42,509 bases of DNA from positions 1 to 42,509 of the forward strand of contig CAMVKK010000003.1 of the NCBI GenBank assembly GCA_947168075.1, written 5' to 3'. The DNA is from an uncultured Alphaproteobacteria bacterium. GTDB taxonomy: Bacteria > Pseudomonadota > Alphaproteobacteria > Rs-D84. The notes beneath the pieces were generated by a model. The model was given only the letters and a program-made list of their open reading frames with translations, was not told where the DNA came from and made no database searches. Below are positions 5,490 through 35,712 of the stretch, piece after piece. The translations under genes were made by a program, and so were the position numbers. The first letter of the stretch is position 1. The number at the start of each line of letters is the position of its first letter.

Positions 5490-6170
5490 ATGAAACGTTC
5501 ATTTTTGTTTTGGGTGTATTTTATTGTTGCCATTATTTTGGGCATATATTTCACGACCCGTATAGTTATGATTAGTATGGGACATGGTAATTTGGCAACA
5601 ATCCATAATATTTCAATTACATCTGATTCATCGGACGGTGATTTATCCGGGGTCCAGACAGCCGCCGCGGCGGGGCTTGGGGCGCCAACGGGTTCACTGG
5701 ATTTAGAAATATTAAATAATCGAATAAGGGCTGTACCAATTGTTCGTAATGCTGCAACACGGCGATTACCAAACGGAACATTGCGTGTCCGGGTCGAATT
5801 GCATCGTGCCGTGGCACAATGGACCGATGGGGTTGCTTTTTATCCACTGGCGGCGGATGGCACAACGGTTGAAACACCGATTGCCACGCGTGATTCAGAT
5901 GCAATTGTATTTCGCGGAACATTGCCCGATGATATTTCTGAAATTACTGCGGCGGCACAACCACTGGCGCAAAAGATTGATTATCTTGAATGGATTGAAA
6001 ACCGCCGTTGGAACATAATAACTGTTGATGGCATGACGGTTATGTTACCCGAAAATAATCCATTGGCATCGCTTCGTGAATTAATATCATTAAATGAAAA
6101 TCAGAATATTTTGGAACGCGACATCAGGGTAATTGACATGCGCGATTCCGCACGAATATTGGTAAAATAG
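5490..6170 (+). CDS. ftsQ: Cell division protein FtsQ-like
   Basis: N-terminal TM, POTRA-like region (LEILNNRIRAVPIVRNAATRRLPNGTLRVRVELHRAVAQW), directly upstream of an FtsA domain. Confidence 0.8.
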   Translation: MKRSFLFWVYFIVAIILGIYFTTRIVMISMGHGNLATIHNISITSDSSDGDLSGVQTAAAAGLGAPTGSLDLEILNNRIRAVPIVRNAATRRLPNGTLRVRVELHRAVAQWTDGVAFYPLAADGTTVETPIATRDSDAIVFRGTLPDDISEITAAAQPLAQKIDYLEWIENRRWNIITVDGMTVMLPENNPLASLRELISLNENQNILERDIRVIDMRDSARILVK

Positions 6171-6173
6171 AAA

Positions 6174-7946
6174 ATGAATCTTAATAATTCTGCTTTTTTA
6201 TGTCTGGACATTGGGTCATCGGCTGTTCATGGCATTGCACATCGTGTGCATGGCGCACGCATTGTAAAATCTGCGATGTTTACGGTGGAATCTTTTGATA
6301 CCGTTTCCGCGATAAAGGCTGTGGTTGACGAATTAGAATCTCAAATCGGCAAACATTTTGATAATGCATATATTACTGGAAATTTTGGTGAATCGTATTA
6401 CGAATTGGCAATAAAAAACCAAGTTTGGTCAAGTGGACATCGCATCACATCCGCCGATATAAGAAATCAGATATCCCAGATTACCCCCCCCGATGAATAT
6501 ATGCCATTGCATATTGTGCCACTGCGATACGACACACCAACGGTTCGTAATTTATTGACCCCAATTGGCCATATTGATATCCAGTTGGCTTCTGCATTTG
6601 GTGCGATATTTTATCCAATCGCAAATATTAACGAAGTAAATACATTTATGCGACGCGCCCATTTACAGACAAACGGATTTTTTGATCCACAATTTGTTCA
6701 AAACGCTGTATTTCGCAAACCCAAAACGGTTACATTATTTATTGATTTTGGTGCTGAATTTACATCTGCGTCCATATGGACGGATCGTGGACCGGTATGG
6801 CACTATAAATTACAAATTGGTGGCACAAATATATCGCAACAAATTGCCGAAGATCAAAATATCAGTTTCGGCGAAGCAGACCGGATAAAACGTGCGGTAT
6901 TTACTATGTTGCCCGGACCGACCGACCGATTTACGCCTGCGGACATTGCGTACGATTTTTCGCGTGCCGATATAAACGATGTCGTTGTAAAATATATGAA
7001 CGATATTATTAATGATATACGCGACAATGCTATGGACGCGATTGAAAAATATAAACCACAAAACATAATTATAACAGGTGGTGCATCGGACGCGAACAGT
7101 GTTGTTGATTTTGTATCAAATGCGTTTGGATTACCGTGCGAAAGTTTTCATGACGATGCATCTGTGCGCGCACTTGGCGAATTTATATGGAACCAAAGTG
7201 CATCTGAACGTGCAAAAATAATTGCACATACAGAACGCAGAAACACTCGCATTGACCGCATATTAAAGATATTCCATCGCAAACCTAAAAAGCGGCGTAC
7301 CTTTGTTCCGATTATGCCCAGTACACTTTGTTTCAATATGAACGATCCAACGACATACACGACATTTGATGCGGCGGGAATAAGCATGATTCATGTTGAT
7401 ATAATGGACGGTCTGTATGTGAACCGGATTGCGGGCAGCAACGAACAAATTCGTCAGATTCGCGAACGAACAACGGCGCATCTGCATGTGCATTTGATGA
7501 CGGAAAGTCCGTCCGTCTGGGCGGCGGACGCGATTGCCGCCGGCGCAGATACAGTTATTGTTTCAACAAATACATCGGGTGTACGCGCGGCGATACGCAC
7601 GATAAAATCATCTGGTCGGCGTGCCGGGGTTGCGCTGAACCCGGACACATCGCCCGACATATTAAAACCTGTTTTGCGGGACCTGGACGAAGTAATGGTG
7701 ATGGCGGTTACCCCCGGTGCCGCTGGTCAAGATTTTTCACCGGCGTGCCTGCATAAAATTTCTGTTTTGGCGGCAACGCGTAAAAAATATGATTTGCATT
7801 TCAAGATTTCTGTGGACGGTGGCATAAATGATAAAACCGCCCCGCTCTGTTGGGCGGCGGGCGCAGATTATTTGGTTTCGGGTTCATACCTGGCGCATGC
7901 ATCTGATTTCCCAATTGCGGTGCAAAGTTTATTAAAAAAACAATAA
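6174..7946 (+). CDS. FtsA cell-division actin homologue fused to ribulose-phosphate 3-epimerase
   Basis: Single 590-aa ORF. N-terminal ~375 aa FtsA-like (LCLDIGSSAVHGIAHRV; IDFGAEFTSASIW; IIITGGASD), then basic/amphipathic NTRIDRILKIFHRKPKKRR, then an Rpe domain (IMPSTLCFN; IHVDIMDG; HVHLM; GVALNPDT; VMAVTPGAAGQDF; SVDGGINDKTA; AGADYLVSGS). Confidence 0.9.
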   Translation: MNLNNSAFLCLDIGSSAVHGIAHRVHGARIVKSAMFTVESFDTVSAIKAVVDELESQIGKHFDNAYITGNFGESYYELAIKNQVWSSGHRITSADIRNQISQITPPDEYMPLHIVPLRYDTPTVRNLLTPIGHIDIQLASAFGAIFYPIANINEVNTFMRRAHLQTNGFFDPQFVQNAVFRKPKTVTLFIDFGAEFTSASIWTDRGPVWHYKLQIGGTNISQQIAEDQNISFGEADRIKRAVFTMLPGPTDRFTPADIAYDFSRADINDVVVKYMNDIINDIRDNAMDAIEKYKPQNIIITGGASDANSVVDFVSNAFGLPCESFHDDASVRALGEFIWNQSASERAKIIAHTERRNTRIDRILKIFHRKPKKRRTFVPIMPSTLCFNMNDPTTYTTFDAAGISMIHVDIMDGLYVNRIAGSNEQIRQIRERTTAHLHVHLMTESPSVWAADAIAAGADTVIVSTNTSGVRAAIRTIKSSGRRAGVALNPDTSPDILKPVLRDLDEVMVMAVTPGAAGQDFSPACLHKISVLAATRKKYDLHFKISVDGGINDKTAPLCWAAGADYLVSGSYLAHASDFPIAVQSLLKKQ

Positions 7947-32672: not shown

Positions 32673-33299
32673 TTATAAAAGGCATTTTTTTAATTCTGAA
32701 TAGTCTTCGGCTTGGTCGATTAATTTATTTTTTATTTCTTCGGCGGCGTGGATTTTCTGCATAGTTAAAACTATATCAGGATGAGATTGCAATTCATTGT
32801 TAATTTTTTCAACCGCCGCATCTATATCAGATTTATCTTTTATAAAAACAGGCATAATTGAATCAGCCGCCGAATATATCGCATTATGCAGTTCTGTTTT
32901 ATTATCATCAATCACAGATAAATATGCGTTTATGTGCATGTTTTCGTGGTTCAGAATAGCATTATACGAACATGTTTTTGGATTATGTCTTATATCAACC
33001 TGGACCAAAAAATCATTATATCCAATAGTTGCATCAACAGATTTAAGCGCGACACAAAAACCATTATCCACGGGATTTATTGTTGTATTAATATCATAAT
33101 TATCAACCATTGTTGCAATAACATTACCGTGTAATAAATCCATTGGCTTTCGTGGTTGAACAACTGTTTTTGTCCAATTGGGTGTATTAATTGTAATTTT
33201 TGGTTTTATTTTGTATGTGGTGCATTCGCCCGCATTGGCGATACTAATAAAACCAAAAATAAATAATAAAACAGATAAAAAACGAATATTTTTAAACAT
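32673..33299 (-). CDS. Secreted protein with HExxH-like motif, possible DUF922-like metalloprotease
   Basis: Signal peptide MFKNIRFLSVLLFIFGFISIANA; NHENMHINAYL (HExMH). Overlaps the virB4 stop by 8 nt. ORF track extends to 33425. Confidence 0.6.
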   Translation of the reverse strand: MFKNIRFLSVLLFIFGFISIANAGECTTYKIKPKITINTPNWTKTVVQPRKPMDLLHGNVIATMVDNYDINTTINPVDNGFCVALKSVDATIGYNDFLVQVDIRHNPKTCSYNAILNHENMHINAYLSVIDDNKTELHNAIYSAADSIMPVFIKDKSDIDAAVEKINNELQSHPDIVLTMQKIHAAEEIKNKLIDQAEDYSELKKCLL

Positions 33300-35712
33300 T
33301 ACCACCGGACTGTTTTTTAAGATATTCAGATACAAAGTTTGTTCCGTACATTTTATATAATTCTTCTGCCAACAGTACAGATGGACGACCCGATTCAAAC
33401 AGTCGCAATAAATTACCCAAACCACCCAATTCTGTATTTAATATGACAGATTCGCCATTGACCGGCCGCGATAACAATACAGCACGTTTAAGGTTTGGAT
33501 AGGCTTTACCCTGGATAAATGCCATTTCCAACGGATTTAAATTCCAATGTGCATAATCCGCCGCGTCCGCCGCCGGATTACGGAAGAATAATACTGTTTG
33601 CGCCTGGCCACGAACAACATCACCGATACCTAACTTGTCTAAAATATTTGCGCGTTGGAACGCAACCATATATGCCTGACGGTTTTTGCGTCCCTCTTGC
33701 AGACCCGCAATAAAATTATCACGGAACATTTTATTTTCTAACATAGGCGCTGTTTCATCAATCATAATAAGCGATGGATTTCCACCGGATACAGTTGTTG
33801 TATTTATACGATGCAAAATGTATGAAATAACTGCGGGCGATAAAACCTCGTCTTGTAAAATTTCTGTAAAATCAAATGTAGTAAGCCGCGCCCCCAGATC
33901 CAGTGTATCTGATTCTTCGTTAAATATATCGCCATACTGCAACGGATCAACCCACTTTTTAAGTGCAGCGCGCATTTGACCAGATGATGAAAAACAACTT
34001 TCCCATAAATTTTTAAGTAATCTGTCTTTGCCAGATAAATAATCAAAATTAACCGATACAGCGCGCGCAATTTCATCGGCAGATTGTGGATCACCTTGGC
34101 CCGATATAATTGCAAACCAACGCCGTAAAAATGCCCTGTTTTCCGCCGTATCCGGCATTTTTAATGGATTAAGCCGTGTTTCAAATGATTTTTCAACGGT
34201 ATTTTCAGCCTTTTCTTTACCCTGCATAGTAATATATTTACCACCCACAGAAAGTGTAAATATTTCCGCCCCTTTGTTCCGGTCAAAGAAAAACGCTTTT
34301 AATTTAGGATGACGCAATGATTGCGCAATAAGAAAACTGAATAATGTTGTTTTACCGCCACCCGTTGGACCAATGGTCAGTGTATGCCCCACCGCCGCGG
34401 GTTTATCAGATACATGGAATTGGAACATATATGGCGTACCCTGGGCAGTTGGGAAAACAACCAATGGTCCCGGACCCCAGTCAGAATTTTCAACACCGCG
34501 TGGGGTACTGGACATAGGAATACAAATCGCCGCAGTTTTTGAAAGTAACTTAAAACTGCGCGGGAAAGTATCAAATCCCGGAATTTGTGCAAACCAAGCA
34601 ACCTTTGACGCAAAAGATTCAACAATTGGCGATACACCAAATGACGCAGCAATTTTCTTGAATTCATCAATATATTTATTAAGTTCATCTATTGTAGCGC
34701 CAAACAAAATAAACAATGGATAGTAATTAACCAAACTTTGATTACCAGAAATATTTTCATCCATTGCGCTTTGGGCTTCGTCAACCTGTTCCAATGCAGA
34801 TGTTTGTTTTTCATCGGCGGTTGCGCGCCGCTGACGCAGTGTTATTTCAACATCGGTATTTCCCATAATATGAAAACCGTTCATACAAATCATTTCTGTT
34901 TGTATTGTCGATATTGAATTAAAGAAATCTTCGTCCAAATAATCCGGCGAAATACGGAAAGATATAGTCGCCGCAAATGTTTGAGAATCGCCACTGGTAT
35001 ATCTTATTAAACCATTATTTTCAAAATACACATTATCAACCGCCACATTTTCAGATACTTTATTATCAGCCACCGCCGGGAACGGTTTTGTTACAGGCGA
35101 TAATATCCGGCCAAAAAACCGCGCCATATTATCAGATGATTTATTCTTTAATAATTTTGGTTTATATGCCGCCAAAATTGATTCGATATAATTACCATAT
35201 TGATTTAATTTATCACGCGCCCCAGAACCCGACACAGACAAAACAATATAATAATTATTTAAAAATATCCGTAACCCTTGGGACCGCCATTTGTTATAAA
35301 TACCCTGCAACACAGGCTGATCAAATTCATAGTCCATATTATCATTTGCCGCATCGCGCACCATATAAAATCGTAATATAACATTTGGATCGCGAATTTG
35401 ATTAAATAACTGTGTCCGTAAATCCAGGAATTTTTCCCGTGTGGCGTTATCCTGCATACTGGTCTGGACCCCTGAAACACGATAAACACGAACCAACGAC
35501 CCATCGGTTAATTCCAAAGAATCATCGTTAAATACACGTTTAAACGGTAAATACTGCGCATAATGTGCATATCCAAAATTCGGAAAAATTCGCCGTGTTA
35601 ATGCCGGTAAAAACATCATAAGAACAATAAATACAAAAATCACCGCCATAACCAGTATTGTCATGGTAATCGAGTATCCACCGCCGGCAAAATAATTCAA
35701 AAATCCATCCAT
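33292..35712 (-). CDS. virB4: Type IV secretion system ATPase VirB4/TraC/TrbE family
   Basis: Walker A TIGPTGGGKTTLFSFLIAQSLRH; Walker B-like SLIMIDETAPML; QEGRKNRQAYMVAFQ; VirB4-like N-terminal domain. Confidence 0.9.
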   Translation of the reverse strand: MDGFLNYFAGGGYSITMTILVMAVIFVFIVLMMFLPALTRRIFPNFGYAHYAQYLPFKRVFNDDSLELTDGSLVRVYRVSGVQTSMQDNATREKFLDLRTQLFNQIRDPNVILRFYMVRDAANDNMDYEFDQPVLQGIYNKWRSQGLRIFLNNYYIVLSVSGSGARDKLNQYGNYIESILAAYKPKLLKNKSSDNMARFFGRILSPVTKPFPAVADNKVSENVAVDNVYFENNGLIRYTSGDSQTFAATISFRISPDYLDEDFFNSISTIQTEMICMNGFHIMGNTDVEITLRQRRATADEKQTSALEQVDEAQSAMDENISGNQSLVNYYPLFILFGATIDELNKYIDEFKKIAASFGVSPIVESFASKVAWFAQIPGFDTFPRSFKLLSKTAAICIPMSSTPRGVENSDWGPGPLVVFPTAQGTPYMFQFHVSDKPAAVGHTLTIGPTGGGKTTLFSFLIAQSLRHPKLKAFFFDRNKGAEIFTLSVGGKYITMQGKEKAENTVEKSFETRLNPLKMPDTAENRAFLRRWFAIISGQGDPQSADEIARAVSVNFDYLSGKDRLLKNLWESCFSSSGQMRAALKKWVDPLQYGDIFNEESDTLDLGARLTTFDFTEILQDEVLSPAVISYILHRINTTTVSGGNPSLIMIDETAPMLENKMFRDNFIAGLQEGRKNRQAYMVAFQRANILDKLGIGDVVRGQAQTVLFFRNPAADAADYAHWNLNPLEMAFIQGKAYPNLKRAVLLSRPVNGESVILNTELGGLGNLLRLFESGRPSVLLAEELYKMYGTNFVSEYLKKQSGGNV

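Follow-up and report, generated by a model that had tools for sequence, protein, structure and literature searches.

A ribulose-phosphate 3-epimerase fused to a divergent FtsA throughout an alphaproteobacterial family that lacks FtsZ

The window analyzed here, a stretch of 42,509 nucleotides, belongs to Candidatus Enterousia (order Rs-D84, family Rs-D84, Alphaproteobacteria), and loci homologous to the gene described below are found in Candidatus Enterousia and in uncultured Alphaproteobacteria from the guts of ruminants, horses, birds, and other animals. All of the genomes used are metagenome assemblies, that of the window being 82% complete, and statements about copy number rest on searches across the family. 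Enterousia, placed in the same order and family in earlier work, has genomes of about 0.7-1.1 Mb; that work gives Rpe, RodA, MreB, and MrdA for them and leaves FtsA, FtsZ, and cell division unmentioned (PMC12306168). As an aside on the content of this very small genome, the window also encodes a type IV transporter ATPase of the VirB4/CagE type (33292-35712; PF03135, E=2e-12).

On the forward strand, ftsQ (5490-6170, 226 amino acids; PF03799, E=5e-10) directly precedes, and by its spacing shares an operon with, a gene at 6174-7946 that runs from an ATG start to its stop in a single frame of 590 amino acids. As the first-pass annotation had proposed, this one uninterrupted frame joins the cell division protein FtsA to a ribulose-phosphate 3-epimerase (Rpe), and the next gene downstream is tsaE (PF02367). 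The product is made up of a domain with the actin-like ATPase fold of FtsA (residues 1-342, 6174-7199), a basic helix with a linker (residues 343-377, 7200-7304), and the TIM barrel of Rpe (residues 378-590, 7305-7943), all on the forward strand. In an AlphaFold model of the whole protein (pLDDT 90.1, pTM 0.62) each domain is well predicted and the placement of the domains relative to each other is not.

Two trivial explanations of such a gene, a sequencing artefact that removed a stop or shifted the frame at the junction and the production of two separate proteins by internal initiation at the ATG at 7314, had been raised at the outset as threats to the fusion. The first is excluded by the 117 independent, nonredundant homologous fusions in which the frame is likewise open. 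The second has in its favor that codon 381 is indeed ATG in the window, but in the alignment used for all motif counts (118 rows, comprising the 117 fusions and one stand-alone rpe frame) that codon is ATG in only 66 rows and TTA, CTG, or others elsewhere, and a Shine-Dalgarno-like match lies before the internal ATG in 22 of 66 cases, whereas the true start has one in 113 of 114. Together, artefact and internal start are extremely improbable accounts of the locus.

The N-terminal half is a divergent FtsA, for which matches of the single sequence are weak and the evidence at the level of the family is clear. Taken alone, the sequence stays below the cut-offs of both curated models (26.4 bits versus 31.8 for PF14450; 55.7 versus 175.9 for TIGR01174); the FtsA proteins of FtsZ-bearing relatives in family f6 of the order also fall below the TIGR01174 cut-off. 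A profile of 46 homologues matches solved FtsA in the PDB at E=1e-16 over residues 9-340, HHalign aligns the half to FtsA of order relatives with 99.9% probability (E=5e-36), and the best 19 PDB fold matches found by Foldseek with the AlphaFold model are all FtsA (TMt up to 0.75), followed by Rpe. These approaches thus agree on the identity first assigned from sequence motifs. PilM and EutJ, considered as other identities for this half, were rejected as weaker than FtsA in profile and fold searches, PilM reaching a TMt of 0.55, clearly below FtsA. The nucleotide-binding motifs are kept in 113-117 of the 118 rows: phosphate-1, D12-I13-G14 (6207-6215; D12 in 113 and G14 in 117), phosphate-2, D191-F-G193 (6744-6752; D191 in 113 and G193 in 116), and the adenosine motif, G302-G303 (7077-7082; 117 and 113, respectively). 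Polymerization and a septal localization are putative for this half of the protein.

Between the two domains, the AlphaFold model shows a helix (residues 343-367) followed by a short, low-confidence, disordered stretch (residues 368-374). This region evolves much faster than both domains and has no conserved sequence, while staying basic throughout the alignment (median net charge +10, minimum +4). Of the basic amphipathic stretch originally described here, the basic character therefore stands, whereas the amphipathic moment is only moderate, reaching p<=0.05 against shuffled sequences in only 24% of cases. From its charge and modeled structure, the stretch is likely the membrane-targeting helix that formerly ended FtsA and is now internal, by which the fusion presumably binds the membrane.

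The C-terminal half is a complete Rpe, and the metal ligands noted on first reading are retained. PF00834 matches residues 392-573 (E=5e-44, 150.5 bits versus a cut-off of 21.1) and the NCBIfam model NF004076 is passed (173 bits versus 165); the equivalog TIGR01163 is not reached (155.5 bits versus 212.6), and the model for D-allulose-6-phosphate epimerase scores lower, at 136 bits. Foldseek superimposes the half on the Rpe structure 2fli with a TMt of 0.93 and an rmsd of 1.3. The four ligands are conserved in 117-118 of the 118 rows, namely H407 and D409 in IHVDIMDG (7392-7400; 118 and 117 rows), H440 in HVHLM (7491-7493; 118 rows), and D548, which is also the putative acid, in SVDGGI (7815-7817; 118 rows). 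Along with the complete barrel and these ligands, the fusion shares the substrate serine and the phosphate loop with known Rpe. Judged from these sequence features, the half most likely still catalyzes the epimerization of ribulose 5-phosphate and xylulose 5-phosphate. It differs from stand-alone Rpe in being carried on a division protein, in its own long stem (1.31) from the Rpe of the order, and in a conserved STNTSG loop (residues 464-469, 7563-7580) at the place where Rpe usually has an HxE-type loop. The fused Rpe domains are monophyletic (support 100/100).

A single PF00834 match is present in the genome of the window, as in most of its relatives, so that the fused domain is usually, and not always, the sole Rpe of the cell. 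An extra stand-alone Rpe-like gene, encoding 223-228 amino acids, is found in at least six Enterousia genomes (L184, L185, and L186 in G175, G144, and G151, and others in G135, G147, and G177). These genes form a separate clade, joined by the second copy of G045 (L189), and were possibly acquired horizontally or encode another sugar-phosphate epimerase.

The fusion is a property of the family as a whole. It is present at full length in 34 of 35 sampled Enterousia genomes, missing from one that is 70% complete, and outside Enterousia a search with the alignment as query covered 28 genomes of the family, from 13 further genera, and found both halves in one frame in 26, the two exceptions being one gene split at contig ends and one genome without the fusion. 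Even in genus g22, where the FtsA half is very divergent, the halves are still fused. A search for Rpe in 202 genomes of the order returned long frames (about 577-655 amino acids) throughout family Rs-D84; in most of the other families, rpe stands alone in a short frame. Purifying selection on both halves is strong: over 105 pairs of close relatives, not independent of each other, the median dN/dS is about 0.08 (FtsA part) and 0.07 (Rpe part).

The surroundings of the gene point to its origin. The fusion lies directly behind ftsQ in 112 of 114 homologous loci, and the succession of ftsQ and ftsA, known from the ftsQ-ftsA-ftsZ segment of the dcw cluster, is shared with the order; what differs is that rpe takes the place of the downstream ftsZ in the order and is fused with ftsA in the family. 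Separate ftsA and rpe frames in relatives had been put forward as a finding that would speak against a genuine fusion. Such frames, overlapping or close to each other, are confined to other families of the order and so show where the fusion came from rather than refuting it. In families f3 and f6 the stop and start codons share the A of TAATG, just behind an AAGGAG, and in f2 the two genes overlap by 17 nucleotides. Family f4 has an ABC transporter gene (PF00664/PF00005, membrane and ATPase domains, about 590-600 amino acids) between ftsA and rpe (loci L126, L128, L130, L131, L132, L136, and L138), from which it follows that an ftsQ-ftsA-x-rpe neighborhood is old in the order. A tree of MreB and SEDS proteins groups family Rs-D84 with f3 and f6, weakly (82/55). 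A single fusion event from a translationally coupled pair fits all of the data on origin; because the TAATG overlap shifts the frame, fusion required both loss of the stop and an indel. An apparent second fusion in G048 (L137, 874 amino acids) was discarded as a spurious Arg/His-rich frame in GC-rich DNA that runs into a normal rpe.

The ancestral adjacency and overlap of the two genes, the fast-evolving linker without conserved sequence, and the reduced size of these genomes (0.6-1.1 Mb) would all be expected if the boundary had simply been lost by chance during genome reduction, leaving two independent domains joined by a functionless tether. Such a neutral operon fusion is nonetheless rather unlikely, as a single intact frame has been retained across 13 genera and re-splitting was not observed in 184 genomes of the family. 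Moreover, a linked and conserved FtsA despite the loss of FtsZ, described next, suggests a function for the FtsA half, although coupling of the two halves is not thereby proven.

Nearly all bacteria divide with the tubulin FtsZ, which the actin-like FtsA normally anchors. The first-pass annotation had remarked that ftsZ is missing next door; this is correct and understates the case, as FtsZ is absent from the whole of family Rs-D84, in all 184 genomes searched. No match to PF00091 above the cut-off was found in 156 Enterousia genomes, of which 103 are >=90% complete and <=5% contaminated, the single-contig genome G060 being also negative; four fragments matched at E 0.01-0.14, far below the cut-off. 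The same search likewise found none in the 28 genomes sampled from 13 further genera of the family, but it recovered FtsZ from 17 of 18 genomes in other families of the order and from 6 of 6 in other orders of the class. The family retains MreB, FtsK, FtsQ, several transpeptidases (class B PBPs), and two SEDS proteins, the number expected if RodA and FtsW are both present. With these kept and FtsZ gone, its members are walled bacteria that have most of a divisome and no FtsZ. Elsewhere in the order, a 93%-complete genome of family f5 (G038; L199, L217, and L226) is without FtsZ, FtsA, and Rpe and keeps MreB, two SEDS proteins, transpeptidases, and FtsK; it is a possible second loss of FtsZ, its placement in the tree being unsure on a long branch.

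Loss of FtsZ raises the question of what the FtsA half now does, as the FtsA trait of binding the FtsZ C-terminus finds no partner in a family in which no FtsZ was found. One answer is that this half has left division altogether and serves to anchor the enzyme at the membrane or to regulate it, its usual partner being gone, its sequence divergent, and the position equivalent to R300 of E. coli FtsA, which we take to be an FtsZ-contact residue, highly variable among the fusions of the 118-row alignment. That position is uninformative, because FtsZ-bearing relatives in the order do not conserve it either, and it was dropped as evidence. Since the complete FtsA fold and its ATP-binding motifs are still there, under purifying selection, and the gene still lies directly behind ftsQ, we regard an exit from division as quite improbable. 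A different reading takes the Rpe half as a mainly structural oligomerizer that clusters FtsA into higher-order assemblies replacing the FtsZ scaffold. Rpe enzymes form multimers, the closest solved structures (2fli, 1rpx, 7b1w, and 1tqj) were crystallized with many chains per entry, and absence of FtsZ and presence of the fusion coincide in the same family. The essentially invariant catalytic ligands, which a purely structural role does not require, make this unlikely.

With FtsA (TIGR01174/PF14450; 1e4f/4a2a, 7q6f, and 3wqt) the fusion shares the fold over residues 9-340, the ATP motifs, the place after ftsQ, and a basic helix after the fold, but it falls under the curated cut-offs, is joined to an enzyme, has its helix inside the protein rather than at the C terminus, and belongs to a family without FtsZ. 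Being so divergent, the FtsA half may possibly have a changed role. Other bacteria that divide without FtsZ (Chlamydia, Planctomycetes, and Wolbachia supergroup J) have likewise lost ftsZ and kept wall genes with MreB or FtsK. These lineages generally lack ftsA too (PMC10591338 Table 2), the loss of ftsZ, ftsB, and ftsA in them having few exceptions for ftsA (PMC12283558), whereas family Rs-D84 keeps ftsA in every genus sampled. No prior report of an FtsA-Rpe fusion or of FtsZ loss in this family was found in the open-licence literature of PubMed Central.

The gene probably encodes a genuine bifunctional membrane fusion protein, an FtsA in a wall-building divisome without FtsZ that carries what is usually the only Rpe of the cell. 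A translationally coupled ftsA-rpe pair with the TAATG overlap would have become one frame in a single event, no later than the base of family Rs-D84, the same family from which ftsZ is gone. FtsA of E. coli is tethered to the membrane through its helix, assembles into filaments, and has been proposed to activate FtsW and septal synthases (PMC10591338, PMC7613929, PMC11323482). The FtsA half of the fusion most likely still serves division correspondingly, as a membrane-attached polymer that organizes or activates FtsQ, the FtsW/FtsI-type pair of SEDS protein and PBP, and FtsK without FtsZ, and the Rpe half a working enzyme that would thereby be held at the membrane. The role in division, the catalysis, and any benefit of joining the halves are putative elements of this bifunctional reading. 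The anchoring of the epimerase at the divisome and the coupling of pentose phosphate flux to division that the first-pass annotation had suggested are likewise conjectural. A bolder version, offered tentatively and as possible rather than probable, has this walled family dividing by means of an FtsA polymer as the divisome scaffold, with the fused Rpe adding metabolic or oligomerizing input.

FtsA has been seen as the membrane anchor of FtsZ, and most lineages described to date without FtsZ have lost FtsA as well. A family with FtsA still in place, complete with ATP site and ftsQ neighbor, but without FtsZ makes it testable whether FtsA alone can organize or activate septal wall synthesis, and the fusion of this protein to a usually single-copy enzyme of central metabolism offers a handle on whether there is a physical link between metabolism and division.
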